Assembly: GCA_026874595.1 (NCBI GenBank)
Contig: CM049318.1
Location: forward strand, 44,930,456 to 44,994,455
Origin: Sipunculus nudus
Taxonomy: Eukaryota; Annelida; Sipuncula; Golfingiida; Sipunculidae
DNA: 64,000 nt
Reading direction: 5' to 3'
The notes under the pieces are model-generated. The model saw only the letters and a list, made by a program, of their open reading frames with translations. It was not told the origin of the DNA and did no database searches. Of this stretch, positions 10,175 through 64,000 are shown piece by piece (the first letter of the stretch is position 1; each line of letters opens with the position of its first letter). A program made the translations under genes and the position numbers.

Positions 10175-13100
10175 ATTTGCGATAGAAAGGTCTGGTGTTT
10201 GGCGTTAGACAGTTTCCCTCTAGTTCTTAGTCATTCAATCGCAAGTCTCGTCATATCTCGCACCGTTTCTCGTGAAACGAGAACACGTGACCATTCAAAG
10301 AAATGCCTATAATTATGTCATTTTTCACGCTACAGACACATGGTTTGCAGCGCTGGATAGCGGCTGACACTCGCAGTCACATTCAGGGGTCACATTGTTA
10401 GTCTCGTCAAATCTCGCGCCGTTTTTCGCCAAACCACGAAGACACGTGCCGTCGCCGCAAGTGGCGGCAGGGTCCCCTACGGTGGGCGGCCGGCGTGTGC
10501 AGCGGTGCGTGACGGCCTCTCCGGGCCCCATCTATGATCATACATGTTGGAGGCACAGTCCAGACTTTATTGCTTGCCGGAAATCTTCGATTTTCGCAAG
10601 CTGGTTGGTCAGTCGCGGGATGTCTGTTTGTCTGTTTGTTTGTTTGTTTGTTTGTCTGTCCAGTCTCTACAGGTCGCAATTTTGATCCCATCGCTTTCAA
10701 ACTTTCACAGTTTGTGTAAAAATCAAAAATGCAAGAAGCCTATTGTTTTTGGGCAATATAGGTCAAAGGTCAAGGTCAAGGTCATCAAAAGTTCCTAAAG
10801 TGCTCTTTTCTTCATATCTCCATTACTATTTGTCATAGCCACTTCAAACAGGGCTCATTTTAATCGGCATTCCAAGGCCTTTCTTCTGATATATATGTTG
10901 CTGAAATCTGCTGTTTCTATGGTTACACATTTTGGGGGGAAACTCATGATTTTCGAAAATAAAAGGCCTAATTTTTCTAACTTTGTCATTTTTAAAGCTA
11001 GAGAGTTCTAGTTTTTTGCATCAGATAGTACTAAATAAGCTTTCAATTATACAAGTGAAAGTCTCGTAAAATCTCGCACCATTTCTCGTCAAACGAGAAT
11101 TTTCGAGATTTCATTAAATATGGCTTACAGGTCGCATTTTTTAAACTATGACTTTGAAAATGACATATTTTGTGTTATTTAGAAATATCTCGAAAACCAA
11201 TTTTTCATTTTTTTGGAAATAGCCACCAGGGGGCGTGGTACATGAAACACTGTAACATATCATTTTTTCTGCAATATCTCAAAAAATATTAAACGTGACA
11301 CCATTTTTTGGGGTCGTATCTGAAACTAGGAACATTGGCTTATCCCTTCGCACATGTTGCTTTGTGCTGCCGTTACCATGGTTACCAAATTTTGGGGTAA
11401 AACTTGACAATCTGAAAATTCGGAGTTTTCCAGCTTCTCTCTCTGTTGATATTTGCGATAGAAAGGTCTGGTGTTTGGCGTTAGACAGTTTCCCTCTAGT
11501 TCTTAGTCATTCAATCGCAAGTCTCGTCATATCTCGCACCGTTTCTCGTGAAACGAGAACACGTGACCATTCAAAGAAATGCCTATAATTATGTCATTTT
11601 TCACGCTACAGACACATGGTTTGCAGCGCTGGATAGCGGCTGACACTCGCAGTCACATTCAGGGGTCACATTGTTAGTCTCGTCAAATCTCGCGCCGTTT
11701 TTCGCCAAACCACGAAGACACGTGCCGTCGCCGCAAGTGGCGGCAGGGTCCCTACGGTGGGCGGGCCGGCGTGTGCAGCGGTGCGTGACGGCCTCTCCGG
11801 GCCCCATCTATGATCATACATGTTGGAGGCACAGTCCAGACTTTATTGCTTGCCGGAAATCTTCGATTTTCGCAAGCTGGTTGGTCAGTCGCGGATGTCT
11901 GTTTGTCTGTTTGTTTGTTTGTTTGTTTGTCTGTCCAGTCTCTACAGGTCGCAATTTTGATCCCATCGCTTTCAAACTTTCACAGTTTGTGTAAAATCAA
12001 AAAATGCAAGAAGCCTATTGTTTTTGGGCAATATAGGTCAAAGGTCAAGGTCAAGGTCATCAAAAGTTCCTAAAGTGCTCTTTTCTTCATATCTCCATTA
12101 CTATTTGTCATAGCCACTTCAAACAGGGCTCATTTTAATCGGCATTCCAAGGCCTTTCTTCTGATATATATGTTGCTGAAATCTGCTGTTTCTATGGTTA
12201 CACATTTTGGGGGGAAACTCATGATTTTCGAAAATAAAAGGCTTAATTTTTCTAACTTTGTCATTTTTAAAGCTAGAGAGTTCTAGTTTTTTGCATCAGA
12301 TAGTACTAAATAAGCTTTCAATTATACAAGTGAAAGTCTCGTAAAATCTCGCACCATTTCTCGTCAAACGAGAATTTTCGAGATTTCATTAAATATGGCT
12401 TACAGGTCGCATTTTTTAAACTATGACTTTGAAAATGACATATTTTGTGTTATTTAGAAATATCTCGAAACCAATTTTTCATTTTTTGGAAATAGCCACC
12501 AGGGGGCGTGGTACATGAAACACTGTAACATATCATTTTTCTGCAATATCTCAAAAAATATTAAACGTGACACCATTTTTTGGGTCGTATCTGAAACTAG
12601 GAACATTGGCTTATCCCTTCGCACATGTTGCTTTGTGCTGCCGTTACCATGGTTACCAAATTTTGGGGTAAAACTTGACAATCTGAAAATTCGGAGTTTT
12701 CCAGCTTCTCTCTCTGTTGATATTTGCGATAGAAAGGTCTGGTGTTTGGCGTTAGACAGTTTCCCTCTAGTTCTTAGTCATTCAATCGCAAGTCTCGTCA
12801 TATCTCGCACCGTTTCTCGTGAAACGAGAACACGTGACCATTCAAAGAAATGCCTATAATTATGTCATTTTTCACGCTACAGACACATGGTTTGCAGCGC
12901 TGGATAGCGGCTGACACTCGCAGTCACATTCAGGGGTCACATTGTTAGTCTCGTCAAAATCTCGCCGCCGTTTTTTCGCCAAACCACGAAGACACGTGCC
13001 GTCGCCGCAAGTGGCGGCAGGGTCCCTACGGTGGGCGGCCCGGCGTGTGCAGCGGTGCGTGACGGCCTCTCCGGGCCCCATCTATGATCATACATGTTGG

Positions 13101-15662
13101 AGGCACAGTCCAGACTTTATTGCTTGCCGGAAATCTTCGATTTTCGCAAGCTGGTTGGTCAGTCGCGGATGTCTGTTTGTCTGTTTGTTTGTTTGTTTGT
13201 TTGTCTGTCCAGTCTCTACAGGTCGCAATTTTGATCCCATCGCTTTCAAACTTTCACAGTTTGTGTAAAATCAAAAATGCAAGAAGCCTATTGTTTTTGG
13301 GCAATATAGGTCAAAGGTCAAGGTCAAGGTCATCAAAAGTCCTAAAGTGCTCTTTTCTTCATATCTCCATTACTATTTGTCATAGCCACTTCAAACAGGG
13401 CTCATTTTAATCGGCATTCCAAGGCCTTTCTTCTGATATATATGTTGCTGAAATCTGCTGTTTCTATGGTTACACATTTTGGGGGGAAACTCATGATTTT
13501 CGAAAATAAAAGGCCTAATTTTTTCTAACTTTGTCATTTTTAAAGCTAGAGAGTTCTAGTTTTTTGCATCAGATAGTACTAAATAAGCTTTCAATTATAC
13601 AAGTGAAAGTCTCGTAAAATCTCGCACCATTTCTCGTCAAACGAGAATTTTCGAGATTTCATTAAATATGGCTTACAGGTCGCATTTTTTAAACTATGAC
13701 TTTGAAAATGACATATTTTGTGTTATTTAGAAATATCTCGAAACCAATTTTTCATTTTTTGGAAATAGCCACCAGGGGGCGTGGTACATGAAACACTGTA
13801 ACATATCATTTTTCTGCAATATCTCAAAAAATATTAAACGTGACACCATTTTTTGGGTCGTATCTGAAACTAGGAACATTGGCTTATCCCTTCGCACATG
13901 TTGCTTTGTGCTGCCGTTACCATGGTTACCAAATTTTGGGGTAAAACTTGACAATCTGAAAATTCGGAGTTTTCCAGCTTCTCTCTCTGTTGATATTTGC
14001 GATAGAAAGGTCTGGTGTTTGGCGTTAGACAGTTTCCCTCTAGTTCTTAGTCATTCAATCGCAAGTCTCGTCATATCTCGCACCGTTTCTCGTGAAACGA
14101 GAACACGTGACCATTCAAAGAAATGCCTATAATTATGTCATTTTTCACGCTACAGACACATGGTTTGCAGCGCTGGATAGCGGCTGACACTCGCAGTCAC
14201 ATTCAGGGGTCACATTGTTAGTCTCGTCAAATCTCGCGCCGTTTTTTCGCCAAACCACGAAGACACGTGCCGTCGCCGCAAGTGGCGGCAGGGTCCCTAC
14301 GGTGGGCGGCCGGCGTGTGCAGCGGTGCGTGACGGCCTCTCCGGGCCCCATCTATGATCATACATGTTGGAGGCACAGTCCAGACTTTATTGCTTGCCGG
14401 AAATCTTCGATTTTCGCAAGCTGGTTGGTCAGTTCGCGGATGTCTGTTTGTCTGTTTGTTTGTTTGTTTGTTTGTCTGTCCAGTCTCTACAGGTCGCAAT
14501 TTTGATCCCATCGCTTTCAAACTTTCACAGTTTGTGTAAAATCAAAAATGCAAGAAGCCTATTGTTTTTGGGCAATATAGGTCAAAGGTCAAGGTCAAGG
14601 TCATCAAAAGTTCCTAAAGTGCTCTTTTCTTCATATCTCCATTACTATTTGTCATAGCCACTTCAAACAGGGCTCATTTTAATCGGCATTCCAAGGCCTT
14701 TCTTCTGATATATATGTTGCTGAAATCTGCTGTTTCTATGGTTACACATTTTGGGGGGAAACTCATGATTTTCGAAAATAAAAGGCCTAATTTTTCTAAC
14801 TTTGTCATTTTTAAAGCTAGAGAGTTCTAGTTTTTTGCATCAGATAGTACTAAATAAGCTTTCAATTATACAAGTGAAAGTCTCGTAAAATCTCGCACCA
14901 TTTCTCGTCAAACGAGAATTTTCGAGATTTCATTAAATATGGCTTACAGGTCGCATTTTTTAAACTATGACTTTGAAAATGACATATTTTGTGTTATTTA
15001 GAAATATCTCGAAACCAATTTTTCATTTTTTGGAAATAGCCACCAGGGGGCGTGGTACATGAAACACTGTAACATATCATTTTTCTGCAATATCTCAAAA
15101 AAATATTAAACGTGACACCATTTTTTGGGTCGTATCTGAAACTAGGAACATTGGCTTATCCCTTCGCACATGTTGCTTTGTGCTGCCGTTACCATGGTTA
15201 CCAAATTTTGGGGTAAAACTTGACAATCTGAAAATTCGGAGTTTTCCAGCTTCTCTCTCTGTTGATATTTGCGATAGAAAGGTCTGGTGTTTGGCGTTAG
15301 ACAGTTTCCCTCTAGTTCTTAGTCATTCAATCGCAAGTCTCGTCATATCTCGCACCGTTTCTCGTGAAACGAGAACACGTGACCATTCAAAGAAATGCCT
15401 ATAATTATGTCATTTTTCACGCTACAGACACATGGTTTGCAGCGCTGGATAGCGGCTGACACTCGCAGTCACATTCAGGGGTCACATTGTTAGTCTCGTC
15501 AAATCTCGCGCCGTTTTTCGCCAAACCACGAAGACACGTGCCGTCGCCGCAAGTGGCGGCAGGGTCCCTACGGTGGGCGGCCGGCGTGTGCAGCGGTGCG
15601 TGACGGCCTCTCCGGGCCCCATCTATGATCATACATGTTGGAGGCACAGTCCAGACTTTATT

Positions 15663-15692
15663 GCTTGCCGGAAATCTTCGATTTTCGCAAGC
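15663..15692. repeat. Foldback hairpin at monomer head
   Basis: The arms GCTTGCCGGAAATC and GATTTTCGCAAGC pair around a TTC loop with one mismatch and one bulge. The same structure recurs in every monomer and, in better-matched form, at 28421-28449 and 30477-30505 in the diverged elements. It could be an element terminus or a structural signal; function unknown. Confidence 0.8.
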
Positions 15693-15712
15693 TGGTTGGT
15701 CAGTCGCGGATG

Positions 15713-15748
15713 TCTGTTTGTCTGTTTGTTTGTTTGTTTGTTTGTCTG
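15713..15748 (+). repeat. TCTG/TTTG microsatellite
   Basis: Tetranucleotide tract TCTG-TTTG-TCTG-(TTTG)5-TCTG. It has the same length in every A and B monomer checked, which implies monomers spread by copying faster than the microsatellite changes. One instance, at about 28411-28420 and 32727-32746, is split by the diverged segment. Confidence 0.92.
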
Positions 15749-15848
15749 TCCAGTCTCTACAGGTCGCAATTTTGATCCCATCGCTTTCAAACTTTCACAG
15801 TTTGTGTAAAATCAAAAATGCAAGAAGCCTATTGTTTTTGGGCAATAT

Positions 15849-15873
15849 AGGTCAAAGGTCAAGGTCAAGGTCA
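15849..15873 (+). promoter_or_regulatory. Cluster of four AGGTCA half-sites (nuclear-receptor-like)
   Basis: Four AGGTCA hexamers lie in direct orientation: one, a 1-bp spacer, then three with no spacer. The first pair forms a DR1 arrangement (known for RXR, HNF4 and COUP-TF type receptors). The later ones form TCAAGGTCA, the extended monomer site known for ERR, SF-1 and FTZ-F1 receptors. The cluster occurs in every 1269-bp monomer and in both diverged elements. Occupancy is not shown; the match is by eye. Confidence 0.5.
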
Positions 15874-16157
15874 TCAAAAGTTCCTAAAGTGCTCTTTTCT
15901 TCATATCTCCATTACTATTTGTCATAGCCACTTCAAACAGGGCTCATTTTAATCGGCATTCCAAGGCCTTTCTTCTGATATATATGTTGCTGAAATCTGC
16001 TGTTTCTATGGTTACACATTTTGGGGGGAAACTCATGATTTTCGAAAATAAAAGGCCTAATTTTTCTAACTTTGTCATTTTTAAAGCTAGAGAGTTCTAG
16101 TTTTTTGCATCAGATAGTACTAAATAAGCTTTCAATTATACAAGTGAAAGTCTCGTA

Positions 16158-16200
16158 AAATCTCGCACCATTTCTCGTCAAACGAGAATTTTCGAGATTT
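16158..16200. repeat. Two-tier CTCG/CGAG palindrome (copy I)
   Basis: Outer arms AAATCTCG (16158-16165) and CGAGATTT (16193-16200) enclose inner arms TTCTCGT (16172-16178) and ACGAGAA (16182-16188) around a CAA loop. Both stems are perfect. Versions recur in the second half of the monomer and in the 149-bp units at 29.6-30.5 kb. It could form a cruciform or RNA stem, or bind a dimeric protein. Confidence 0.82.
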
Positions 16201-16308
16201 CATTAAATATGGCTTACAGGTCGCATTTTTTAAACTATGACTTTGAAAATGACATATTTTGTGTTATTTAGAAATATCTCGAAACCAATTTTTCATTTTT
16301 TGGAAATA

Positions 16309-16322
16309 GCCACCAGGGGGCG
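16309..16322 (+). promoter_or_regulatory. CTCF-like core motif (representative forward site)
   Basis: The 14-mer GCCACCAGGGGGCG matches the core of the animal CTCF consensus. Intact forward copies begin at 11222, 12495, 13768, 15039, 16309 and then every 1269 bp to 27730 (14 sites), and at 33307 to 48551 (13 sites). One copy at 49821 has lost a G. The flanks (ATA before, TGGTAC after) match the longer consensus less well. CTCF binding is inferred from motif only; a species-specific zinc-finger protein of similar specificity is possible. Confidence 0.55.
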
Positions 16323-16456
16323 TGGTACATGAAACACTGTAACATATCATTTTTCTGCAATATCTCAAAAAATATTAAACGTGACACCATTTTTTGGGTC
16401 GTATCTGAAACTAGGAACATTGGCTTATCCCTTCGCACATGTTGCTTTGTGCTGCC

Positions 16457-16470
16457 GTTACCATGGTTAC
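16457..16470. promoter_or_regulatory. X-box-like near-palindrome
   Basis: GTTACCATGGTTAC is centred on CCATGG and resembles the RFX-factor X-box (GTTRCCATGGYAAC) with one to two mismatches. Identical copies lie at 28751-28764 and 29494-29507. A closer match, GTTTCCATGGTAAC, lies at 31075-31088. Weak evidence for function. Confidence 0.35.
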
Positions 16471-16625
16471 CAAATTTTGGGGTAAAACTTGACAATCTGA
16501 AAATTCGGAGTTTTCCAGCTTCTCTCTCTGTTGATATTTGCGATAGAAAGGTCTGGTGTTTGGCGTTAGACAGTTTCCCTCTAGTTCTTAGTCATTCAAT
16601 CGCAAGTCTCGTCATATCTCGCACC

Positions 16626-16650
16626 GTTTCTCGTGAAACGAGAACACGTG
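16626..16650 (+). promoter_or_regulatory. Second CTCG palindrome with adjacent CACGTG E-box
   Basis: Inner arms TTCTCGT (16628-16634) and ACGAGAA (16638-16644) flank a GAA loop, directly followed by the E-box CACGTG at 16645-16650. This is the homologue of copy I, 456 bp upstream. A further CACGTG lies at 16804-16809. CACGTG is the known core for USF, MITF and Myc-type bHLH proteins; binding here is inference. Confidence 0.5.
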
Positions 16651-16774
16651 ACCATTCAAAGAAATGCCTATAATTATGTCATTTTTCACGCTACAGACAC
16701 ATGGTTTGCAGCGCTGGATAGCGGCTGACACTCGCAGTCACATTCAGGGGTCACATTGTTAGTCTCGTCAAATC

Positions 16775-16890
16775 TCGCGCCGTTTTTCGCCAAACCACGA
16801 AGACACGTGCCGTCGCCGCAAGTGGCGGCAGGGTCCCTACGGTGGGCGGCCGGCGTGTGCAGCGGTGCGTGACGGCCTCTCCGGGCCCCA
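16775..16890. other. GC-rich, CpG-dense block in each monomer
   Basis: Positions 16801-16890 contain 68 G or C of 90 (76%) and about 13 CpG, in a monomer that is otherwise AT-rich. It includes GCCGC-aagtg-GCGGC, a 5-bp stem. The diverged elements at 28.4-32.7 kb lack it and have further 149-bp units in the equivalent place, so it looks like a replacement or insertion acquired before amplification. I found no tRNA-type A or B boxes and no recognisable gene. Confidence 0.75.
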
Positions 16891-19800
16891 TCTATGATCA
16901 TACATGTTGGAGGCACAGTCCAGACTTTATTGCTTGCCGGAAATCTTCGATTTTCGCAAGCTGGTTGGTCAGTCGCGGATGTCTGTTTGTCTGTTTGTTT
17001 GTTTGTTTGTTTGTCTGTCCAGTCTCTACAGGTCGCAATTTTGATCCCATCGCTTTCAAACTTTCACAGTTTGTGTAAAATCAAAAATGCAAGAAGCCTA
17101 TTGTTTTTGGGCAATATAGGTCAAAGGTCAAGGTCAAGGTCATCAAAAGTTCCTAAAGTGCTCTTTTCTTCATATCTCCATTACTATTTGTCATAGCCAC
17201 TTCAAACAGGGCTCATTTTAATCGGCATTCCAAGGCCTTTCTTCTGATATATATGTTGCTGAAATCTGCTGTTTCTATGGTTACACATTTTGGGGGGAAA
17301 CTCATGATTTTCGAAAATAAAAGGCCTAATTTTTCTAACTTTGTCATTTTTAAAGCTAGAGAGTTCTAGTTTTTTGCATCAGATAGTACTAAATAAGCTT
17401 TCAATTATACAAGTGAAAGTCTCGTAAAATCTCGCACCATTTCTCGTCAAACGAGAATTTTCGAGATTTCATTAAATATGGCTTACAGGTCGCATTTTTT
17501 AAACTATGACTTTGAAAATGACATATTTTGTGTTATTTAGAAATATCTCGAAACCAATTTTTCATTTTTTGGAAATAGCCACCAGGGGGCGTGGTACATG
17601 AAACACTGTAACATATCATTTTTCTGCAATATCTCAAAAAATATTAAACGTGACACCATTTTTTGGGTCGTATCTGAAACTAGGAACATTGGCTTATCCC
17701 TTCGCACATGTTGCTTTGTGCTGCCGTTACCATGGTTACCAAATTTTGGGGTAAAACTTGACAATCTGAAAATTCGGAGTTTTCCAGCTTCTCTCTCTGT
17801 TGATATTTGCGATAGAAAGGTCTGGTGTTTGGCGTTAGACAGTTTCCCTCTAGTTCTTAGTCATTCAATCGCAAGTCTCGTCATATCTCGCACCGTTTCT
17901 CGTGAAACGAGAACACGTGACCATTCAAAGAAATGCCTATAATTATGTCATTTTTCACGCTACAGACACATGGTTTGCAGCGCTGGATAGCGGCTGACAC
18001 TCGCAGTCACATTCAGGGGTCACATTGTTAGTCTCGTCAAATCTCGCGCCGTTTTTCGCCAAACCACGAAGACACGTGCCGTCGCCGCAAGTGGCGGCAG
18101 GGTCCCTACGGTGGGCGGCCGGCGTGTGCAGCGGTGCGTGACGGCCTCTCCGGGCCCCATCTATGATCATACATGTTGGAGGCACAGTCCAGACTTTATT
18201 GCTTGCCGGAAATCTTCGATTTTCGCAAGCTGGTTGGTCAGTCGCGGATGTCTGTTTGTCTGTTTGTTTGTTTGTTTGTTTGTCTGTCCAGTCTCTACAG
18301 GTCGCAATTTTGATCCCATCGCTTTCAAACTTTCACAGTTTGTGTAAAATCAAAAATGCAAGAAGCCTATTGTTTTTGGGCAATATAGGTCAAAGGTCAA
18401 GGTCAAGGTCATCAAAAGTTCCTAAAGTGCTCTTTTCTTCATATCTCCATTACTATTTGTCATAGCCACTTCAAACAGGGCTCATTTTAATCGGCATTCC
18501 AAGGCCTTTCTTCTGATATATATGTTGCTGAAATCTGCTGTTTCTATGGTTACACATTTTGGGGGGAAACTCATGATTTTCGAAAATAAAAGGCCTAATT
18601 TTTCTAACTTTGTCATTTTTAAAGCTAGAGAGTTCTAGTTTTTTGCATCAGATAGTACTAAATAAGCTTTCAATTATACAAGTGAAAGTCTCGTAAAATC
18701 TCGCACCATTTCTCGTCAAACGAGAATTTTCGAGATTTCATTAAATATGGCTTACAGGTCGCATTTTTTAAACTATGACTTTGAAAATGACATATTTTGT
18801 GTTATTTAGAAATATCTCGAAACCAATTTTTCATTTTTTGGAAATAGCCACCAGGGGGCGTGGTACATGGAACACTGTAACATATCATTTTTCTGCAATA
18901 TCTCAAAAAATATTAAACGTGACACCATTTTTTGGGTCGTATCTGAAACTAGGAACATTGGCTTATCCCTTCGCACATGTTGCTTTGTGCTGCCGTTACC
19001 ATGGTTACCAAATTTTGGGGTAAAACTTGACAATCTGAAAATTCGGAGTTTTCCAGCTTCTCTCTCTGTTGATATTTGCGATAGAAAGGTCTGGTGTTTG
19101 GCGTTAGACAGTTTCCCTCTAGTTCTTAGTCATTCAATCGCAAGTCTCGTCATATCTCGCACCGTTTCTCGTGAAACGAGAACACGTGACCATTCAAAGA
19201 AATGCCTATAATTATGTCATTTTTCACGCTACAGACACATGGTTTGCAGCGCTGGATAGCGGCTGACACTCGCAGTCACATTCAGGGGTCACATTGTTAG
19301 TCTCGTCAAATCTCGCGCCGTTTTTCGCCAAACCACGAAGACACGTGCCGTCGCCGCAAGTGGCGGCAGGGTCCCTACGGTGGGCGGCCGGCGTGTGCAG
19401 CGGTGCGTGACGGCCTCTCCGGGCCCCATCTATGATCATACATGTTGGAGGCACAGTCCAGACTTTATTGCTTGCCGGAAATCTTCGATTTTCGCAAGCT
19501 GGTTGGTCAGTCGCGGATGTCTGTTTGTCTGTTTGTTTGTTTGTTTGTTTGTCTGTCCAGTCTCTACAGGTCGCAATTTTGATCCCATCGCTTTCAAACT
19601 TTCACAGTTTGTGTAAAATCAAAAATGCAAGAAGCCTATTGTTTTTGGGCAATATAGGTCAAAGGTCAAGGTCAAGGTCATCAAAAGTTCCTAAAGTGCT
19701 CTTTTCTTCATATCTCCATTACTATTTGTCATAGCCACTTCAAACAGGGCTCATTTTAATCGGCATTCCAAGGCCTTTCTTCTGATATATATGTTGCTGA

Positions 19801-22800
19801 AATCTGCTGTTTCTATGGTTACACATTTTGGGGGGAAACTCATGATTTTCGAAAATAAAAGGCCTAATTTTTCTAACTTTGTCATTTTTAAAGCTAGAGA
19901 GTTCTAGTTTTTTGCATCAGATAGTACTAAATAAGCTTTCAATTATACAAGTGAAAGTCTCGTAAAATCTCGCACCATTTCTCGTCAAACGAGAATTTTC
20001 GAGATTTCATTAAATATGGCTTACAGGTCGCATTTTTTAAACTATGACTTTGAAAATGACATATTTTGTGTTATTTAGAAATATCTCGAAACCAATTTTT
20101 CATTTTTTGGAAATAGCCACCAGGGGGCGTGGTACATGAAACACTGTAACATATCATTTTTCTGCAATATCTCAAAAAATATTAAACGTGACACCATTTT
20201 TTGGGTCGTATCTGAAACTAGGAACATTGGCTTATCCCTTCGCACATGTTGCTTTGTGCTGCCGTTACCATGGTTACCAAATTTTGGGGTAAAACTTGAC
20301 AATCTGAAAATTCGGAGTTTTCCAGCTTCTCTCTCTGTTGATATTTGCGATAGAAAGGTCTGGTGTTTGGCGTTAGACAGTTTCCCTCTAGTTCTTAGTC
20401 ATTCAATCGCAAGTCTCGTCATATCTCGCACCGTTTCTCGTGAAACGAGAACACGTGACCATTCAAAGAAATGCCTATAATTATGTCATTTTTCACGCTA
20501 CAGACACATGGTTTGCAGCGCTGGATAGCGGCTGACACTCGCAGTCACATTCAGGGGTCACATTGTTAGTCTCGTCAAATCTCGCGCCGTTTTTCGCCAA
20601 ACCACGAAGACACGTGCCGTCGCCGCAAGTGGCGGCAGGGTCCCTACGGTGGGCGGCCGGCGTGTGCAGCGGTGCGTGACGGCCTCTCCGGGCCCCATCT
20701 ATGATCATACATGTTGGAGGCACAGTCCAGACTTTATTGCTTGCCGGAAATCTTCGATTTTCGCAAGCTGGTTGGTCAGTCGCGGATGTCTGTTTGTCTG
20801 TTTGTTTGTTTGTTTGTTTGTCTGTCCAGTCTCTACAGGTCGCAATTTTGATCCCATCGCTTTCAAACTTTCACAGTTTGTGTAAAATCAAAAATGCAAG
20901 AAGCCTATTGTTTTTGGGCAATATAGGTCAAAGGTCAAGGTCAAGGTCATCAAAAGTTCCTAAAGTGCTCTTTTCTTCATATCTCCATTACTATTTGTCA
21001 TAGCCACTTCAAACAGGGCTCATTTTAATCGGCATTCCAAGGCCTTTCTTCTGATATATATGTTGCTGAAATCTGCTGTTTCTATGGTTACACATTTTGG
21101 GGGGAAACTCATGATTTTCGAAAATAAAAGGCCTAATTTTTCTAACTTTGTCATTTTTAAAGCTAGAGAGTTCTAGTTTTTTGCATCAGATAGTACTAAA
21201 TAAGCTTTCAATTATACAAGTGAAAGTCTCGTAAAATCTCGCACCATTTCTCGTCAAACGAGAATTTTCGAGATTTCATTAAATATGGCTTACAGGTCGC
21301 ATTTTTTAAACTATGACTTTGAAAATGACATATTTTGTGTTATTTAGAAATATCTCGAAACCAATTTTTCATTTTTTGGAAATAGCCACCAGGGGGCGTG
21401 GTACATGAAACACTGTAACATATCATTTTTCTGCAATATCTCAAAAAATATTAAACGTGACACCATTTTTTGGGTCGTATCTGAAACTAGGAACATTGGC
21501 TTATCCCTTCGCACATGTTGCTTTGTGCTGCCGTTACCATGGTTACCAAATTTTGGGGTAAAACTTGACAATCTGAAAATTCGGAGTTTTCCAGCTTCTC
21601 TCTCTGTTGATATTTGCGATAGAAAGGTCTGGTGTTTGGCGTTAGACAGTTTCCCTCTAGTTCTTAGTCATTCAATCGCAAGTCTCGTCATATCTCGCAC
21701 CGTTTCTCGTGAAACGAGAACACGTGACCATTCAAAGAAATGCCTATAATTATGTCATTTTTCACGCTACAGACACATGGTTTGCAGCGCTGGATAGCGG
21801 CTGACACTCGCAGTCACATTCAGGGGTCACATTGTTAGTCTCGTCAAATCTCGCGCCGTTTTTCGCCAAACCACGAAGACACGTGCCGTCGCCGCAAGTG
21901 GCGGCAGGGTCCCTACGGTGGGCGGCCGGCGTGTGCAGCGGTGCGTGACGGCCTCTCCGGGCCCCATCTATGATCATACATGTTGGAGGCACAGTCCAGA
22001 CTTTATTGCTTGCCGGAAATCTTCGATTTTCGCAAGCTGGTTGGTCAGTCGCGGATGTCTGTTTGTCTGTTTGTTTGTTTGTTTGTTTGTCTGTCCAGTC
22101 TCTACAGGTCGCAATTTTGATCCCATCGCTTTCAAACTTTCACAGTTTGTGTAAAATCAGAAATGCAAGAAGCCTATTGTTTTTGGGCAATATAGGTCAA
22201 AGGTCAAGGTCAAGGTCATCAAAAGTTCCTAAAGTGCTCTTTTCTTCATATCTCCATTACTATTTGTCATAGCCACTTCAAACAGGGCTCATTTTAATCG
22301 GCATTCCAAGGCCTTTCTTCTGATATATATGTTGCTGAAATCTGCTGTTTCTATGGTTACACATTTTGGGGGGAAACTCATGATTTTCGAAAATAAAAGG
22401 CCTAATTTTTCTAACTTTGTCATTTTTAAAGCTAGAGAGTTCTAGTTTTTTGCATCAGATAGTACTAAATAAGCTTTCAATTATACAAGTGAAAGTCTCG
22501 TAAAATCTCGCACCATTTCTCGTCAAACGAGAATTTTCGAGATTTCATTAAATATGGCTTACAGGTCGCATTTTTTAAACTATGACTTTGAAAATGACAT
22601 ATTTTGTGTTATTTAGAAATATCTCGAAACCAATTTTTCATTTTTTGGAAATAGCCACCAGGGGGCGTGGTACATGAAACACTGTAACATATCATTTTTC
22701 TGCAATATCTCAAAAAATATTAAACGTGACACCATTTTTTGGGTCGTATCTGAAACTAGGAACATTGGCTTATCCCTTCGCACATGTTGCTTTGTGCTGC

Positions 22801-50007: not shown

Positions 50008-50507
50008 NNNNNNNNNNNNNNNNNNNNNNNNNNNNNNNNNNNNNNNNNNNNNNNNNNNNNNNNNNNNNNNNNNNNNNNNNNNNNNNNNNNNNNNNNNNNN
50101 NNNNNNNNNNNNNNNNNNNNNNNNNNNNNNNNNNNNNNNNNNNNNNNNNNNNNNNNNNNNNNNNNNNNNNNNNNNNNNNNNNNNNNNNNNNNNNNNNNNN
50201 NNNNNNNNNNNNNNNNNNNNNNNNNNNNNNNNNNNNNNNNNNNNNNNNNNNNNNNNNNNNNNNNNNNNNNNNNNNNNNNNNNNNNNNNNNNNNNNNNNNN
50301 NNNNNNNNNNNNNNNNNNNNNNNNNNNNNNNNNNNNNNNNNNNNNNNNNNNNNNNNNNNNNNNNNNNNNNNNNNNNNNNNNNNNNNNNNNNNNNNNNNNN
50401 NNNNNNNNNNNNNNNNNNNNNNNNNNNNNNNNNNNNNNNNNNNNNNNNNNNNNNNNNNNNNNNNNNNNNNNNNNNNNNNNNNNNNNNNNNNNNNNNNNNN
50501 NNNNNNN
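50008..50507. other. Assembly gap (500 N)
   Basis: A second placeholder gap of exactly 500 N. Array orientation and subfamily both change across it, so the join is not supported by sequence. Confidence 0.98.
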
Positions 50508-52578: not shown

Positions 52579-52592
52579 CGCCCCCTGGTGGC
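52579..52592 (-). promoter_or_regulatory. CTCF-like core (representative reverse site)
   Basis: CGCCCCCTGGTGGC is the reverse complement of the subfamily A motif with no change between subfamilies. Ten copies begin at 51307, 52579, 53848, 55117, 56386, 57655, 58924, 60193, 61462 and 62731. Confidence 0.55.
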
Positions 52593-53023
52593 TATTTCCA
52601 AAAAATGAAAAATTGATTTCGAGATATTTCTAAACAACACAAAATATGTCATTTTCAAAGTCATAGTTTAAAAAATGCGACCTGTAAGCCATATCTAATG
52701 AAATCTCGAAAATTCTCGTTTGACGAGAAATGGTGCGAGATTTTACGAGACTTTTACTTGTATGATAAAAAGCTTATTTAGTACTATATGATGCAAAAAA
52801 CTAGGAATCTCTAGCTTTAAAAATGACAAAGTTAGAAAAATTAGGCCTTTTATTTTCGAAAATCATGAGATTTCCCCCAAAATGTGTAACCATAGAAACA
52901 GCAGATTTCAGCAACATATACATCAGAAGAAAGGCCTTGGAATGCCGATTAAAAGGAGCCATGTTTGAAGTGGCTATGACAAATAGTAATGGAGATATGA
53001 AGAAAAGAGCACTTTAGGAACTT

Positions 53024-53052
53024 TTGATGACCTTGACCTTGACCTTTGACCT
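53024..53052 (-). promoter_or_regulatory. AGGTCA cluster in subfamily B (representative)
   Basis: Read on the minus strand this is the same four-hexamer AGGTCA arrangement as in subfamily A, unchanged, followed by TATTGCCCAAAAACAATAG on the plus strand. Confidence 0.48.
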
Positions 53053-56000
53053 ATATTGCCCAAAAACAATAGGCTTCTTGCATTTTTGATTCTACACAAA
53101 CTGTGAAAGTTTGAAAGCGATGGGATGAAAATTGCGACCTGTAGAGACTGGACAGACAAACAAACAAACAAACAAACAGACAAACAGACATCCGCGACTG
53201 ACCAACCAGCTTGCGAAAATCGAAGATTTCCGGCAAGCAATAAAGTTGTGACTGTGCCTCCAACATGTATGATCATAGATGGGGCCCGGAGAGGCCGTCA
53301 CGCACCGCTGCACACGCCGGCCGCCCACCGTAGGGACCCTGCCGCCACTTGCGGCGACGGCACGTGTCTTCGTGGTTTGGCGAAAAACGGCGCGAGATTT
53401 GACGAGACTAACAATGTGACCCCTGAATGTGACTGCGAGTGTCAGCCGCTATCCAGCGCTGCAAACCATGTGTCTGTAGCGTGAAAAATGACATAATTAT
53501 AGGCATTTCTTTGAATGGTCACGTGTTCTCGTTTCACGAGAAACGGTGCGAGATATGACGAGACTTGCGATTGAATGACTAAGAACTAGAGGGATGCTGT
53601 CTAACGCCAAACACCAGACCTTTCTATCGCAAATATCAACAGAGAGAGAAGCTGGAAAACTCCGAATTTTCAGATTGTCAAGTTTTACCCCAAAATTTGG
53701 TAACCATGGTAACGGCAGCACAAAGCAACATGTGCGAAGGGATAAGCCAATGTTCCTAGTTTCAGATACGACCCAAAAAATGGTGTCACGTTTAATATTT
53801 TTTGAGATATTGCAGAAAAATGATATGTTACAGTGTTTCATGTACCACGCCCCCTGGTGGCTATTTCCAAAAAATGAAAAATTGATTTCGAGATATTTCT
53901 AAACAACACAAAATATGTCATTTTCAAAGTCATAGTTTAAAAAATGCGACCTGTAAGCCATATCTAATGAAATCTCGAAAATTCTCGTTTGACGAGAAAT
54001 GGTGCGAGATTTTACGAGACTTTTACTTGTATGATAAAAAGCTTATTTAGTACTATATGATGCAAAAAACTAGGAATCTCTAGCTTTAAAAATGACAAAG
54101 TTAGAAAAATTAGGCCTTTTATTTTCGAAAATCATGAGATTTCCCCCAAAATGTGTAACCATAGAAACAGCAGATTTCAGCAACATATACATCAGAAGAA
54201 AGGCCTTGGAATGCCGATTAAAAGGAGCCATGTTTGAAGTGGCTATGACAAATAGTAATGGAGATATGAAGAAAAGAGCACTTTAGGAACTTTTGATGAC
54301 CTTGACCTTGACCTTTGACCTATATTGCCCAAAAACAATAGGCTTCTTGCATTTTTGATTCTACACAAACTGTGAAAGTTTGAAAGCGATGGGATGAAAA
54401 TTGCGACCTGTAGAGACTGGACAGACAAACAAACAAACAAACAAACAGACAAACAGACATCCGCGACTGACCAACCAGCTTGCGAAAATCGAAGATTTCC
54501 GGCAAGCAATAAAGTTGTGACTGTGCCTCCAACATGTATGATCATAGATGGGGCCCGGAGAGGCCGTCACGCACCGCTGCACACGCCGGCCGCCCACCGT
54601 AGGGACCCTGCCGCCACTTGCGGCGACGGCACGTGTCTTCGTGGTTTGGCGAAAAACGGCGCGAGATTTGACGAGACTAACAATGTGACCCCTGAATGTG
54701 ACTGCGAGTGTCAGCCGCTATCCAGCGCTGCAAACCATGTGTCTGTAGCGTGAAAAATGACATAATTATAGGCATTTCTTTGAATGGTCACGTGTTCTCG
54801 TTTCACGAGAAACGGTGCGAGATATGACGAGACTTGCGATTGAATGACTAAGAACTAGAGGGATGCTGTCTAACGCCAAACACCAGACCTTTCTATCGCA
54901 AATATCAACAGAGAGAGAAGCTGGAAAACTCCGAATTTTCAGATTGTCAAGTTTTACCCCAAAATTTGGTAACCATGGTAACGGCAGCACAAAGCAACAT
55001 GTGCGAAGGGATAAGCCAATGTTCCTAGTTTCAGATACGACCCAAAAAATGGTGTCACGTTTAATATTTTTTGAGATATTGCAGAAAAATGATATGTTAC
55101 AGTGTTTCATGTACCACGCCCCCTGGTGGCTATTTCCAAAAAATGAAAAATTGATTTCGAGATATTTCTAAACAACACAAAATATGTCATTTTCAAAGTC
55201 ATAGTTTAAAAAATGCGACCTGTAAGCCATATCTAATGAAATCTCGAAAATTCTCGTTTGACGAGAAATGGTGCGAGATTTTACGAGACTTTTACTTGTA
55301 TGATAAAAAGCTTATTTAGTACTATATGATGCAAAAAACTAGGAATCTCTAGCTTTAAAAATGACAAAGTTAGAAAAATTAGGCCTTTTATTTTCGAAAA
55401 TCATGAGATTTCCCCCAAAATGTGTAACCATAGAAACAGCAGATTTCAGCAACATATACATCAGAAGAAAGGCCTTGGAATGCCGATTAAAAGGAGCCAT
55501 GTTTGAAGTGGCTATGACAAATAGTAATGGAGATATGAAGAAAAGAGCACTTTAGGAACTTTTGATGACCTTGACCTTGACCTTTGACCTATATTGCCCA
55601 AAAACAATAGGCTTCTTGCATTTTTGATTCTACACAAACTGTGAAAGTTTGAAAGCGATGGGATGAAAATTGCGACCTGTAGAGACTGGACAGACAAACA
55701 AACAAACAAACAAACAGACAAACAGACATCCGCGACTGACCAACCAGCTTGCGAAAATCGAAGATTTCCGGCAAGCAATAAAGTTGTGACTGTGCCTCCA
55801 ACATGTATGATCATAGATGGGGCCCGGAGAGGCCGTCACGCACCGCTGCACACGCCGGCCGCCCACCGTAGGGACCCTGCCGCCACTTGCGGCGACGGCA
55901 CGTGTCTTCGTGGTTTGGCGAAAAACGGCGCGAGATTTGACGAGACTAACAATGTGACCCCTGAATGTGACTGCGAGTGTCAGCCGCTATCCAGCGCTGC

Positions 56001-59000
56001 AAACCATGTGTCTGTAGCGTGAAAAATGACATAATTATAGGCATTTCTTTGAATGGTCACGTGTTCTCGTTTCACGAGAAACGGTGCGAGATATGACGAG
56101 ACTTGCGATTGAATGACTAAGAACTAGAGGGATGCTGTCTAACGCCAAACACCAGACCTTTCTATCGCAAATATCAACAGAGAGAGAAGCTGGAAAACTC
56201 CGAATTTTCAGATTGTCAAGTTTTACCCCAAAATTTGGTAACCATGGTAACGGCAGCACAAAGCAACATGTGCGAAGGGATAAGCCAATGTTCCTAGTTT
56301 CAGATACGACCCAAAAAATGGTGTCACGTTTAATATTTTTTGAGATATTGCAGAAAAATGATATGTTACAGTGTTTCATGTACCACGCCCCCTGGTGGCT
56401 ATTTCCAAAAAATGAAAAATTGATTTCGAGATATTTCTAAACAACACAAAATATGTCATTTTCAAAGTCATAGTTTAAAAAATGCGACCTGTAAGCCATA
56501 TCTAATGAAATCTCGAAAATTCTCGTTTGACGAGAAATGGTGCGAGATTTTACGAGACTTTTACTTGTATGATAAAAAGCTTATTTAGTACTATATGATG
56601 CAAAAAACTAGGAATCTCTAGCTTTAAAAATGACAAAGTTAGAAAAATTAGGCCTTTTATTTTCGAAAATCATGAGATTTCCCCCAAAATGTGTAACCAT
56701 AGAAACAGCAGATTTCAGCAACATATACATCAGAAGAAAGGCCTTGGAATGCCGATTAAAAGGAGCCATGTTTGAAGTGGCTATGACAAATAGTAATGGA
56801 GATATGAAGAAAAGAGCACTTTAGGAACTTTTGATGACCTTGACCTTGACCTTTGACCTATATTGCCCAAAAACAATAGGCTTCTTGCATTTTTGATTCT
56901 ACACAAACTGTGAAAGTTTGAAAGCGATGGGATGAAAATTGCGACCTGTAGAGACTGGACAGACAAACAAACAAACAAACAAACAGACAAACAGACATCC
57001 GCGACTGACCAACCAGCTTGCGAAAATCGAAGATTTCCGGCAAGCAATAAAGTTGTGACTGTGCCTCCAACATGTATGATCATAGATGGGGCCCGGAGAG
57101 GCCGTCACGCACCGCTGCACACGCCGGCCGCCCACCGTAGGGACCCTGCCGCCACTTGCGGCGACGGCACGTGTCTTCGTGGTTTGGCGAAAAACGGCGC
57201 GAGATTTGACGAGACTAACAATGTGACCCCTGAATGTGACTGCGAGTGTCAGCCGCTATCCAGCGCTGCAAACCATGTGTCTGTAGCGTGAAAAATGACA
57301 TAATTATAGGCATTTCTTTGAATGGTCACGTGTTCTCGTTTCACGAGAAACGGTGCGAGATATGACGAGACTTGCGATGGAATGACTAAGAACTAGAGGG
57401 ATGCTGTCTAACGCCAAACACCAGACCTTTCTATCGCAAATATCAACAGAGAGAGAAGCTGGAAAACTCCGAATTTTCAGATTGTCAAGTTTTACCCCAA
57501 AATTTGGTAACCATGGTAACGGCAGCACAAAGCAACATGTGCGAAGGGATAAGCCAATGTTCCTAGTTTCAGATACGACCCAAAAAATGGTGTCACGTTT
57601 AATATTTTTTGAGATATTGCAGAAAAATGATATGTTACAGTGTTTCATGTACCACGCCCCCTGGTGGCTATTTCCAAAAAATGAAAAATTGATTTCGAGA
57701 TATTTCTAAACAACACAAAATATGTCATTTTCAAAGTCATAGTTTAAAAAATGCGACCTGTAAGCCATATCTAATGAAATCTCGAAAATTCTCGTTTGAC
57801 GAGAAATGGTGCGAGATTTTACGAGACTTTTACTTGTATGATAAAAAGCTTATTTAGTACTATATGATGCAAAAAACTAGGAATCTCTAGCTTTAAAAAT
57901 GACAAAGTTAGAAAAATTAGGCCTTTTATTTTCGAAAATCATGAGATTTCCCCCAAAATGTGTAACCATAGAAACAGCAGATTTCAGCAACATATACATC
58001 AGAAGAAAGGCCTTGGAATGCCGATTAAAAGGAGCCATGTTTGAAGTGGCTATGACAAATAGTAATGGAGATATGAAGAAAAGAGCACTTTAGGAACTTT
58101 TGATGACCTTGACCTTGACCTTTGACCTATATTGCCCAAAAACAATAGGCTTCTTGCATTTTTGATTCTACACAAACTGTGAAAGTTTGAAAGCGATGGG
58201 ATGAAAATTGCGACCTGTAGAGACTGGACAGACAAACAAACAAACAAACAAACAGACAAACAGACATCCGCGACTGACCAACCAGCTTGCGAAAATCGAA
58301 GATTTCCGGCAAGCAATAAAGTTGTGACTGTGCCTCCAACATGTATGATCATAGATGGGGCCCGGAGAGGCCGTCACGCACCGCTGCACACGCCGGCCGC
58401 CCACCGTAGGGACCCTGCCGCCACTTGCGGCGACGGCACGTGTCTTCGTGGTTTGGCGAAAAACGGCGCGAGATTTGACGAGACTAACAATGTGACCCCT
58501 GAATGTGACTGCGAGTGTCAGCCGCTATCCAGCGCTGCAAACCATGTGTCTGTAGCGTGAAAAATGACATAATTATAGGCATTTCTTTGAATGGTCACGT
58601 GTTCTCGTTTCACGAGAAACGGTGCGAGATATGACGAGACTTGCGATTGAATGACTAAGAACTAGAGGGATGCTGTCTAACGCCAAACACCAGACCTTTC
58701 TATCGCAAATATCAACAGAGAGAGAAGCTGGAAAACTCCGAATTTTCAGATTGTCAAGTTTTACCCCAAAATTTGGTAACCATGGTAACGGCAGCACAAA
58801 GCAACATGTGCGAAGGGATAAGCCAATGTTCCTAGTTTCAGATACGACCCAAAAAATGGTGTCACGTTTAATATTTTTTGAGATATTGCAGAAAAATGAT
58901 ATGTTACAGTGTTTCATGTACCACGCCCCCTGGTGGCTATTTCCAAAAAATGAAAAATTGATTTCGAGATATTTCTAAACAACACAAAATATGTCATTTT

Positions 59001-62000
59001 CAAAGTCATAGTTTAAAAAATGCGACCTGTAAGCCATATCTAATGAAATCTCGAAAATTCTCGTTTGACGAGAAATGGTGCGAGATTTTACGAGACTTTT
59101 ACTTGTATGATAAAAAGCTTATTTAGTACTATATGATGCAAAAAACTAGGAATCTCTAGCTTTAAAAATGACAAAGTTAGAAAAATTAGGCCTTTTATTT
59201 TCGAAAATCATGAGATTTCCCCCAAAATGTGTAACCATAGAAACAGCAGATTTCAGCAACATATACATCAGAAGAAAGGCCTTGGAATGCCGATTAAAAG
59301 GAGCCATGTTTGAAGTGGCTATGACAAATAGTAATGGAGATATGAAGAAAAGAGCACTTTAGGAACTTTTGATGACCTTGACCTTGACCTTTGACCTATA
59401 TTGCCCAAAAACAATAGGCTTCTTGCATTTTTGATTCTACACAAACTGTGAAAGTTTGAAAGCGATGGGATGAAAATTGCGACCTGTAGAGACTGGACAG
59501 ACAAACAAACAAACAAACAAACAGACAAACAGACATCCGCGACTGACCAACCAGCTTGCGAAAATCGAAGATTTCCGGCAAGCAATAAAGTTGTGACTGT
59601 GCCTCCAACATGTATGATCATAGATGGGGCCCGGAGAGGCCGTCACGCACCGCTGCACACGCCGGCCGCCCACCGTAGGGACCCTGCCGCCACTTGCGGC
59701 GACGGCACGTGTCTTCGTGGTTTGGCGAAAAACGGCGCGAGATTTGACGAGACTAACAATGTGACCCCTGAATGTGACTGCGAGTGTCAGCCGCTATCCA
59801 GCGCTGCAAACCATGTGTCTGTAGCGTGAAAAATGACATAATTATAGGCATTTCTTTGAATGGTCACGTGTTCTCGTTTCACGAGAAACGGTGCGAGATA
59901 TGACGAGACTTGCGATTGAATGACTAAGAACTAGAGGGATGCTGTCTAACGCCAAACACCAGACCTTTCTATCGCAAATATCAACAGAGAGAGAAGCTGG
60001 AAAACTCCGAATTTTCAGATTGTCAAGTTTTACCCCAAAATTTGGTAACCATGGTAACGGCAGCACAAAGCAACATGTGCGAAGGGATAAGCCAATGTTC
60101 CTAGTTTCAGATACGACCCAAAAAATGGTGTCACGTTTAATATTTTTTGAGATATTGCAGAAAAATGATATGTTACAGTGTTTCATGTACCACGCCCCCT
60201 GGTGGCTATTTCCAAAAAATGAAAAATTGATTTCGAGATATTTCTAAACAACACAAAATATGTCATTTTCAAAGTCATAGTTTAAAAAATGCGACCTGTA
60301 AGCCATATCTAATGAAATCTCGAAAATTCTCGTTTGACGAGAAATGGTGCGAGATTTTACGAGACTTTTACTTGTATGATAAAAAGCTTATTTAGTACTA
60401 TATGATGCAAAAAACTAGGAATCTCTAGCTTTAAAAATGACAAAGTTAGAAAAATTAGGCCTTTTATTTTCGAAAATCATGAGATTTCCCCCAAAATGTG
60501 TAACCATAGAAACAGCAGATTTCAGCAACATATACATCAGAAGAAAGGCCTTGGAATGCCGATTAAAAGGAGCCATGTTTGAAGTGGCTATGACAAATAG
60601 TAATGGAGATATGAAGAAAAGAGCACTTTAGGAACTTTTGATGACCTTGACCTTGACCTTTGACCTATATTGCCCAAAAACAATAGGCTTCTTGCATTTT
60701 TGATTCTACACAAACTGTGAAAGTTTGAAAGCGATGGGATGAAAATTGCGACCTGTAGAGACTGGACAGACAAACAAACAAACAAACAAACAGACAAACA
60801 GACATCCGCGACTGACCAACCAGCTTGCGAAAATCGAAGATTTCCGGCAAGCAATAAAGTTGTGACTGTGCCTCCAACATGTATGATCATAGATGGGGCC
60901 CGGAGAGGCCGTCACGCACCGCTGCACACGCCGGCCGCCCACCGTAGGGACCCTGCCGCCACTTGCGGCGACGGCACGTGTCTTCGTGGTTTGGCGAAAA
61001 ACGGCGCGAGATTTGACGAGACTAACAATGTGACCCCTGAATGTGACTGCGAGTGTCAGCCGCTATCCAGCGCTGCAAACCATGTGTCTGTAGCGTGAAA
61101 AATGACATAATTATAGGCATTTCTTTGAATGGTCACGTGTTCTCGTTTCACGAGAAACGGTGCGAGATATGACGAGACTTGCGATTGAATGACTAAGAAC
61201 TAGAGGGATGCTGTCTAACGCCAAACACCAGACCTTTCTATCGCAAATATCAACAGAGAGAGAAGCTGGAAAACTCCGAATTTTCAGATTGTCAAGTTTT
61301 ACCCCAAAATTTGGTAACCATGGTAACGGCAGCACAAAGCAACATGTGCGAAGGGATAAGCCAATGTTCCTAGTTTCAGATACGACCCAAAAAATGGTGT
61401 CACGTTTAATATTTTTTGAGATATTGCAGAAAAATGATATGTTACAGTGTTTCATGTACCACGCCCCCTGGTGGCTATTTCCAAAAAATGAAAAATTGAT
61501 TTCGAGATATTTCTAAACAACACAAAATATGTCATTTTCAAAGTCATAGTTTAAAAAATGCGACCTGTAAGCCATATCTAATGAAATCTCGAAAATTCTC
61601 GTTTGACGAGAAATGGTGCGAGATTTTACGAGACTTTTACTTGTATGATAAAAAGCTTATTTAGTACTATATGATGCAAAAAACTAGGAATCTCTAGCTT
61701 TAAAAATGACAAAGTTAGAAAAATTAGGCCTTTTATTTTCGAAAATCATGAGATTTCCCCCAAAATGTGTAACCATAGAAACAGCAGATTTCAGCAACAT
61801 ATACATCAGAAGAAAGGCCTTGGAATGCCGATTAAAAGGAGCCATGTTTGAAGTGGCTATGACAAATAGTAATGGAGATATGAAGAAAAGAGCACTTTAG
61901 GAACTTTTGATGACCTTGACCTTGACCTTTGACCTATATTGCCCAAAAACAATAGGCTTCTTGCATTTTTGATTCTACACAAACTGTGAAAGTTTGAAAG

Positions 62001-64000
62001 CGATGGGATGAAAATTGCGACCTGTAGAGACTGGACAGACAAACAAGCAAACAAACAAACAGACAAACAGACATCCGCGACTGACCAACCAGCTTGCGAA
62101 AATCGAAGATTTCCGGCAAGCAATAAAGTTGTGACTGTGCCTCCAACATGTATGATCATAGATGGGGCCCGGAGAGGCCGTCACGCACCGCTGCACACGC
62201 CGGCCGCCCACCGTAGGGACCCTGCCGCCACTTGCGGCGACGGCACGTGTCTTCGTGGTTTGGCGAAAAACGGCGCGAGATTTGACGAGACTAACAATGT
62301 GACCCCTGAATGTGACTGCGAGTGTCAGCCGCTATCCAGCGCTGCAAACCATGTGTCTGTAGCGTGAAAAATGACATAATTATAGGCATTTCTTTGAATG
62401 GTCACGTGTTCTCGTTTCACGAGAAACGGTGCGAGATATGACGAGACTTGCGATTGAATGACTAAGAACTAGAGGGATGCTGTCTAACGCCAAACACCAG
62501 ACCTTTCTATCGCAAATATCAACAGAGAGAGAAGCTGGAAAACTCCGAATTTTCAGATTGTCAAGTTTTACCCCAAAATTTGGTAACCATGGTAACGGCA
62601 GCACAAAGCAACATGTGCGAAGGGATAAGCCAATGTTCCTAGTTTCAGATACGACCCAAAAAATGGTGTCACGTTTAATATTTTTTGAGATATTGCAGAA
62701 AAATGATATGTTACAGTGTTTCATGTACCACGCCCCCTGGTGGCTATTTCCAAAAAATGAAAAATTGATTTCGAGATATTTCTAAACAACACAAAATATG
62801 TCATTTTCAAAGTCATAGTTTAAAAAATGCGACCTGTAAGCCATATCTAATGAAATCTCGAAAATTCTCGTTTGACGAGAAATGGTGCGAGATTTTACGA
62901 GACTTTTACTTGTATGATAAAAAGCTTATTTAGTACTATATGATGCAAAAAACTAGGAATCTCTAGCTTTAAAAATGACAAAGTTAGAAAAATTAGGCCT
63001 TTTATTTTCGAAAATCATGAGATTTCCCCCAAAATGTGTAACCATAGAAACAGCAGATTTCAGCAACATATACATCAGAAGAAAGGCCTTGGAATGCCGA
63101 TTAAAAGGAGCCATGTTTGAAGTGGCTATGACAAATAGTAATGGAGATATGAAGAAAAGAGCACTTTAGGAACTTTTGATGACCTTGACCTTGACCTTTG
63201 ACCTATATTGCCCAAAAACAATAGGCTTCTTGCATTTTTGATTCTACACAAACTGTGAAAGTTTGAAAGCGATGGGATGAAAATTGCGACCTGTAGAGAC
63301 TGGACAGACAAACAAACAAACAAACAAACAGACAAACAGACATCCGCGACTGACCAACCAGCTTGCGAAAATCGAAGATTTCCGGCAAGCAATAAAGTTG
63401 TGACTGTGCCTCCAACATGTATGATCATAGATGGGGCCCGGAGAGGCCGTCACGCACCGCTGCACACGCCGGCCGCCCACCGTAGGGACCCTGCCGCCAC
63501 TTGCGGCGACGGCACGTGTCTTCGTGGTTTGGCGAAAAACGGCGCGAGATTTGACGAGACTAACAATGTGACCCCTGAATGTGACTGCGAGTGTCAGCCG
63601 CTATCCAGCGCTGCAAACCATGTGTCTGTAGCGTGAAAAATGACATAATTATAGGCATTTCTTTGAATGGTCACGTGTTCTCGTTTCACGAGAAACGGTG
63701 CGAGATATGACGAGACTTGCGATTGAATGACTAAGAACTAGAGGGATGCTGTCTAACGCCAAACACCAGACCTTTCTATCGCAAATATCAACAGAGAGAG
63801 AAGCTGGAAAACTCCGAATTTTCAGATTGTCAAGTTTTACCCCAAAATTTGGTAACCATGGTAACGGCAGCACAAAGCAACATGTGCGAAGGGATAAGCC
63901 AATGTTCCTAGTTTCAGATACGACCCAAAAAATGGTGTCACGTTTAATATTTTTTGAGATATTGCAGAAAAATGATATGTTACAGTGTTTCATGTACCAC

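Follow-up and report, generated by a model that had tools for sequence, protein, structure and literature searches.

The 64,000-nucleotide stretch of the Sipunculus nudus genome analyzed here (contig CM049318.1, positions 44,930,456 to 44,994,455 of the forward strand; hereafter, the window) contains a long tandem array of 1,269-bp units, nearly all of which contain a sequence strongly resembling CTCF binding sites (CTCF is a protein that helps fold animal chromosomes). The array is very probably a tandemized relative of the HINE-type elements, which are non-autonomous and Helentron-like; this applies to the structural part of our reading, namely the HINE kinship, the site itself, and the spread of the family through the assembly. 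The whole reading, according to which the array is a tandemized piece of a HINE-type family, the host CTCF binds the core of the site, and the lineages that kept the site were the ones amplified, is held here with moderate confidence. For binding of the core by the host CTCF in vivo, predicted from sequence, the chances appear slightly better than even.

The array and its HINE-type relatives

The 1,269-bp tandem repeat spans positions 10175-64000, with two interruptions, an inserted element and a 500-N run. Block 1 (10175..28418, plus strand) has the exact 14-mer GCCACCAGGGGGCG at 11222, 12495, 13768, 15039, 16309, 17578, 18847, 20116, 21385, 22654, 23923, 25192, 26461, and 27730. Block 2 (32727..50007, plus strand) has it at 33307, 34576, 35845, 37114, 38383, 39652, 40921, 42191, 43460, 44729, 46006, 47279, and 48551. 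The scaffold gap at 50008..50507 separates block 2 from block 3 (50508..64000, minus strand), an inverted and separately homogenized variant with exact minus-strand copies at 51307, 52579, 53848, 55117, 56386, 57655, 58924, 60193, 61462, and 62731. In total, the window holds 28 forward copies (11222 to 48551) and 10 reverse copies (51307 to 62731), and none were found in 100 dinucleotide shuffles of the window. The initial annotation had counted 27 intact forward copies and 10 reverse ones, and the recount gave the same numbers for the array units (14 forward copies in block 1 and 13 in block 2); the 28th forward copy, at 29346, lies inside the inserted element, together with a one-mismatch copy at 28890. 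Its statement that each unit carries one 14-mer also holds, save for a block-2 unit near 49820 in which the 14-mer is one G short.

When cut at the motif, 25 of the 34 complete units are exactly 1,269 bp long, and the units with small indels lie mostly towards the gaps. Each of the 25 block-1 and block-2 units departs from the consensus by 0-2 substitutions, and each of the nine block-3 units by 22-25. The unit has 41% GC, and the array continues with unchanged phase for at least 10 kb past position 64000. Runs of 500 N form both joins (9675-10174 and 50008-50507), so that contiguous sequence establishes neither the adjacency of the 129-bp satellite nor the inversion between blocks 2 and 3. 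This satellite fills positions 1-9674, before the first gap, and reaches 10 kb or more upstream of position 1.

The element inserted between blocks 1 and 2 is a 4.3-kb HINE-type element (TTGCTTGCC...TCTAG; 28419..32726, plus strand). Both of its ends, with a flanking T on either side, are shared identically by six of six other loci, located on six contigs. Its 40-bp flanks, when joined, reproduce the intact unit consensus exactly, giving the empty site with no target-site duplication for the one insertion tested. Several features that characterize HINEs were found here. At the 5' end, GCTTGCCGGAATC and its inverted repeat, corresponding to the HINE 5' subterminal inverted repeat (subTIR) and inverted repeat, form a hairpin at 28420..28450 on the plus strand (fold z -5.2; 0 of 200 shuffles equally stable), followed by a TGTTTG-type microsatellite. 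At the 3' end, an inverted copy of the 5' end, GATTTCCGGCAAGC (3' subTIR; 32692..32705, plus strand), is followed by the palindrome CGACCTATGGTCG (32709..32721, plus strand) and by TCTAG up to 32726; the fold of this 3' stretch has a z of -2.2, with 8 of 200 shuffles equally stable. The insertion is into a T-rich (TT) site without duplication. Internal arrays of the element are built of 148-bp and 331-bp units, and about 70 bp present at the six other loci are missing near 30671 from the copy in the window. No Rfam matches at gathering scores were found in positions 26400-34000.

The 1,269-bp unit opens with the hairpin and microsatellite of this element and aligns to parts of it at 73% and 83%. 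The longest open reading frame in two units encodes 114 aa. Helitron replication-protein domains (Helitron_like_N) were found in the assembly, with 143 matches and open frames of up to 2,426 aa. At four loci, successive family heads (TTGCTTGCCG) are spaced 60-72 bp apart, which suggests insertion of elements into one another's microsatellites; composite arrays could result from this.

The family is widely distributed. In the 1.43-Gb assembly, the exact 14-mer GCCACCAGGGGGCG occurs 3,463 times compared with 0 for a reversed control, and the core GCCRCYAGGGGGCG occurs 10,874 times compared with 2, mostly in the HINE family; in 7,398 of these 10,874 cores, TTTT is found at the spacing most common in the family. 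Cores without TTTT make up 23 of the first 100 listed. Three of the 23, members of one array, were left out; 18 of the 20 examined match a flank-only family profile, and the remaining two are copies of another repeat. The 3' 30-mer of the element has 2,319 matches at up to two mismatches and none for the reversed control, and the 331-bp unit has 39 other full-length matches at 99-100% identity among 40 candidates scored. The 1,269-bp unit was found in short arrays on contigs C2, C4, C5, and C15, which is a lower bound, as 5 of 2,510 candidates were scored, and dispersed relatives of the unit occur on many contigs. A different repeat, unmatched by the family profile, has the same 14-mer at C1:10097046 and C1:10101900, and its two copies are alike around the 14-mer. 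Among the 77 HINE 3' ends listed on contig C1, 37 fall within 63.3-67.7 Mb, i.e., within 4.4 Mb of a 110.9-Mb contig; this cluster is perhaps pericentromeric.

CTCF-like sites and the host CTCF

All site scores were obtained with a vertebrate CTCF matrix. The best 19-mer of the unit, TAGCCACCAGGGGGCGTGG, scores 20.8 bits (p 6e-8), and the next-best site in the unit scores 5.8. Among 1,000 dinucleotide-shuffled monomers, the best scores have a mean of 5.0 and a maximum of 19.8, and none reaches 20.8 bits. The match of the 14-mer to the CTCF core, proposed in the initial annotation, is thus borne out with this matrix, including against shuffled monomers, one of the comparisons by which it was to be judged.

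Each of the six units of the inserted element also has a CTCF-like site on the plus strand, with p from 1.6e-9 to 9.2e-8: TGGCCGCCAGGGGGCGTTG at 28888..28906 (p 3.4e-8), TAGCCACCAGGGGGCGTGC at 29344..29362 (p 9.2e-8), GGGCCGCTAGGGGGCGCTG at 31372..31390 (p 1.2e-8), TGGCCGCTAGGGGGCGCTG at 31699..31717 (p 1.6e-9), TGGCCACTAGTGGGCGCTG at 32030..32048 (p 3.9e-8), and TGTCCGCTAGAGGGCGCTA at 32361..32379 (p 3.9e-8).

CTCF-type sites were also sought as the vertebrate-style words CCAGYAGRGGGCGC, which have G at motif position 7. These occur 170 times in the assembly compared with 5 for the reversed control, the control having one more CpG. Among 265 distinct family units, none has this G, and for 91 of the 100 CCAGYAGRGGGCGC places listed, there is no other CCAGYAGRGGGCGC within 20 kb. 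These observations suggest that predicted CTCF-type sites exist outside the HINE family as well.

A search for the zinc fingers of the species' own CTCF, also suggested earlier, was made with the human CTCF fingers. It led to an 11-finger orthologue encoded at C11:67037578-67038510, with fingers 56% identical to those of human CTCF. The best PDB match of the encoded protein is CTCF (7w1m chain H, E 1.5e-113). The contact residues of fingers 3, 4, and 5 are identical to the human ones, and fingers 1, 2, and 8-11 differ from human at contact positions. In the 7w1m alignment, an SVYDF stretch, the cohesin-binding motif, aligns with CTCF; phmmer with the 50-residue YDF stretch alone gave no match at E up to 10. 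Besides CTCF, the assembly has many C2H2 zinc-finger genes: 320 matches to the CTCF fingers were found, many of them on C16 and others on C7 and C9.

A second host-factor-like motif of the HINE family, beside the CTCF-like core, is AGGTCAAAGGTCAAGGTCAAGGTCA, presumably a run of nuclear-receptor-type half-sites. It is present in both the 1,269-bp unit and the inserted element (10760-10784, 28598-28622, and other units), and 66 related runs were found in the sequences examined.

Possible maintenance of the core and alternative explanations

Copies were picked irrespective of the motif by a 26-base upstream anchor (6,412 matches). From 100 listed anchor places, 80 were used, dense arrays being thinned and the last six places left out. 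Among these 80 copies, 72 have a site at p < 1e-6 and 78 at p < 1e-4, and 61 have the exact core; the core is deleted in two. A motif-masked profile applied to long loci gave 192 distinct spanning units, with 164 at p < 1e-6 and 188 at p < 1e-4, and no control window out of 768 reached p < 1e-4; hits that did not span the motif, ran off the locus, or held N, as well as identical units, were left out. Clustering by flanks only gave 26 groups, of which two flank-broken ones and a core-deleted one were dropped. The resulting 23 lineages have a mean pairwise flank identity of 0.66 (0.43-0.95), some consensuses being as close as 0.95. A smaller set of 14 lineages was obtained from 18 clusters by dropping four (two judged junction-broken or close to another and two near-duplicates). 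The lineages are not a random sample because 12 loci were chosen in clusters of upstream-anchor hits. Two earlier calculations are not used here: a contrast of core and flank, in which the core seemed less changeable (pooled non-CpG changes 11/687 and 699/16,829), was abandoned, as it reflected largely distant, frayed flank, and a first substitution null (0/20,000) was superseded, as it ignored shared ancestry and mutation type.

In the 23 lineages, column identity in the core is 0.838, the highest of any 14-bp window (0.823 in the best of 155 others). The core is also the top window with the 14 lineages (0 of 194 better) and with 11 single long-locus representatives (0 of 234). Divergence from the majority between lineages is 0.099 in the core compared with 0.220 in the flank. 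Sites at p < 1e-6 were found in 19 of 23 lineages and sites at p < 1e-4 in 22 of 23; drift at the flank rate gave a mean of 6.2 and a maximum of 14 lineages at p < 1e-6 in 5,000 runs. Both the divergence and the number of lineages with strong sites argue against the explanation that the motif arose once by chance in an ancestral element and has been merely inherited, with no constraint, which we consider improbable. Nevertheless, some results agree with such inheritance. Within three subfamilies, core change is 1.6% (non-CpG), like that of most windows within about 60 bp, and 39 of 163 windows (non-overlapping and non-anchor) change as little or less. Nor do fixed and private changes differ (P = 0.29, or 0.16 without one old fragment).

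This lack of a difference between fixed and private changes also weighs against our own reading of a core maintained for CTCF binding, as do several other results. When windows of 19 bp are compared, 2 of the 145 others match or surpass the motif, and at about 35-41 bp before it, column identities reach 0.82 in 14-bp windows and 0.79-0.80 in 19-bp windows. This upstream block, which is in part the anchor used to pick the copies, is nearly as well kept as the core; thus, the constraint may not concern CTCF. The 22 distinct substitution events in the 23 lineages do not differ significantly from the matched null (P = 0.08), and neither does the event test with 14 lineages (P = 0.12), which gave P = 0.026 after post hoc omission of one old fragment. 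The scoring matrix is a vertebrate one, and the lineages share ancestry, which the nulls leave out of account. In the host protein, the contacts of finger 6 differ from human at three of four positions and those of finger 7 at two of four (S to T and V to I). For single sites, purifying selection at the level of the host is unsupported, the core changing like neighboring windows; since single copies decay like their neighborhood, selection, if any, would act on which element lineages keep amplifying.

The upstream windows, which come close to the motif or exceed it in column identity, and the non-significant event-level tests would fit a further explanation, in which the core is the end of a block of about 60 bp needed for element replication, resolution, or repeat amplification, its likeness to a CTCF site is incidental, and no binding takes place. 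However, the core is near-optimal for CTCF in most lineages (p 1.6e-9 to 6e-8), per-position variability follows the information content of the matrix (Spearman 0.46, P = 0.046), and changes over 18 haplotypes are milder than a transition- and CpG-matched null (P = 0.0034). We regard this explanation as unlikely, though not negligible. The initial annotation had suggested that the array could be an invertebrate counterpart of macrosatellites such as DXZ4. A corresponding explanation is a dedicated macrosatellite whose tandem organization is maintained for its role in folding. Three observations would agree with such a locus: strong sites of one orientation occur in almost all units of a block, the units are highly homogenized, and the array extends at least 10 kb beyond the window. 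However, the same sites are found in thousands of copies scattered through the assembly and in short arrays at other loci, the copies lack host-level constraint, the inverted arrangement rests on a gap, and the unit has 41% GC. A DXZ4-like locus was rejected as the principal explanation because the sites are family-wide, and we consider it highly improbable. Thus, the earlier interpretation is supported in part, by the strong CTCF-matrix match in each unit and by the host CTCF orthologue, and the single-locus macrosatellite gives way to a Helentron-like family dispersed over many contigs.

In the preferred scenario, host CTCF would bind the core of the family units, and the element lineages keeping a bindable site would be those that went on amplifying; for example, CTCF and cohesin might keep a copy open to Helentron replication proteins. 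One unit may then have grown into the long array by unequal exchange or rolling-circle amplification. The dense cluster of same-orientation sites would accordingly be a by-product of transposon biology rather than a dedicated folding locus. A boundary function of the array appears very improbable, and any role of it in chromosome folding is speculation. A more far-reaching proposal is that the family captured a host architectural protein, so that lineages were selected for a bindable CTCF site in their internal units, the family supplies most of the strongest predicted sites of this type, and long arrays act as CTCF/cohesin stops that reshape folding; judging from the sequence data, we find this doubtful.

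Comparison with known systems

The Cg_HINE elements of the Pacific oyster have a 5' subTIR with inverted repeat and microsatellite, central tandem repeats, and a 3' subTIR with palindrome; they insert into T-rich sites without duplication and form satellite-like arrays (PMC7492417). The S. nudus family shares with them the end structures, central repeats, T-rich insertion, and satellite-like arrays (PMC7492417). The Cg_HINE repeats are 140-180 bp long and mostly present in up to five copies, whereas the S. nudus units are 148, 331, and 1,269 bp long and include a long array (PMC7492417). The CTCF-like core is found in most S. nudus units examined, while the portions of the oyster report consulted mention no CTCF site for Cg_HINE (PMC7492417).

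Mammalian retroelements are known to spread CTCF sites, with binding observed by chromatin immunoprecipitation (ChIP; PMC3368268). They resemble the S. nudus family as transposons that multiply CTCF-type sites genome-wide; however, the mammalian carriers are retroelements with ChIP-bound sites, and the S. nudus carrier is a Helentron-like DNA transposon with sites predicted from sequence (PMC3368268). The ISX element of Drosophila miranda is a Helitron relative. It scatters sites for the dosage compensation complex, and 77 sites on a single chromosome were found to be bound (PMC4384637). Both ISX and the S. nudus family are transposons scattering sites for a chromosome-wide regulatory factor, the factor being the dosage compensation complex and the range one chromosome for ISX, and predicted CTCF-like sites genome-wide for S. 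nudus (PMC4384637). The DXZ4 macrosatellite is GC-rich, exclusively X-linked in human, and bound by CTCF on the inactive X (PMC3218863). It has in common with the S. nudus array the tandem units with one CTCF or CTCF-like site each; unlike this single GC-rich, X-linked, CTCF-bound locus, the S. nudus units have 41% GC, belong to a dispersed transposon family, and carry predicted sites (PMC3218863).

The family may have spread CTCF-like sites through the genome. If so, it would be a case of a Helentron-like DNA transposon spreading CTCF sites in an invertebrate; such spread is described for mammalian retroelements (PMC3368268). If the site is indeed kept between lineages rather than at single insertions, selection on the transposon itself could seed architectural sites. 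At domain borders of echinoderms, a motif was reported to be enriched with no orientation rule (PMC13317027), and according to reviews, the evidence on CTCF and folding in spiralians is sparse (PMC10658181, PMC10658182). Should our reading be true, studies of spiralian genomes would need to disentangle motif enrichment at domain borders from transposon content. The literature search found no paper treating CTCF and Helentron together. A search with two sequence patterns in a collection of viral contigs and with one in a collection of genome contigs gave no match, which carries little weight, as these collections contain no animal genomes.

A search of the assembly for COX1 gave nine near-equal matches and a tenth one on small contigs (C60, C61, C62, C66, C72, C74, C75, C89, and C123), as well as a short, broken fragment on C5, and no contig was recognizable as mitochondrial. 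The small contigs look bacterial and may be symbiont or contaminant DNA.

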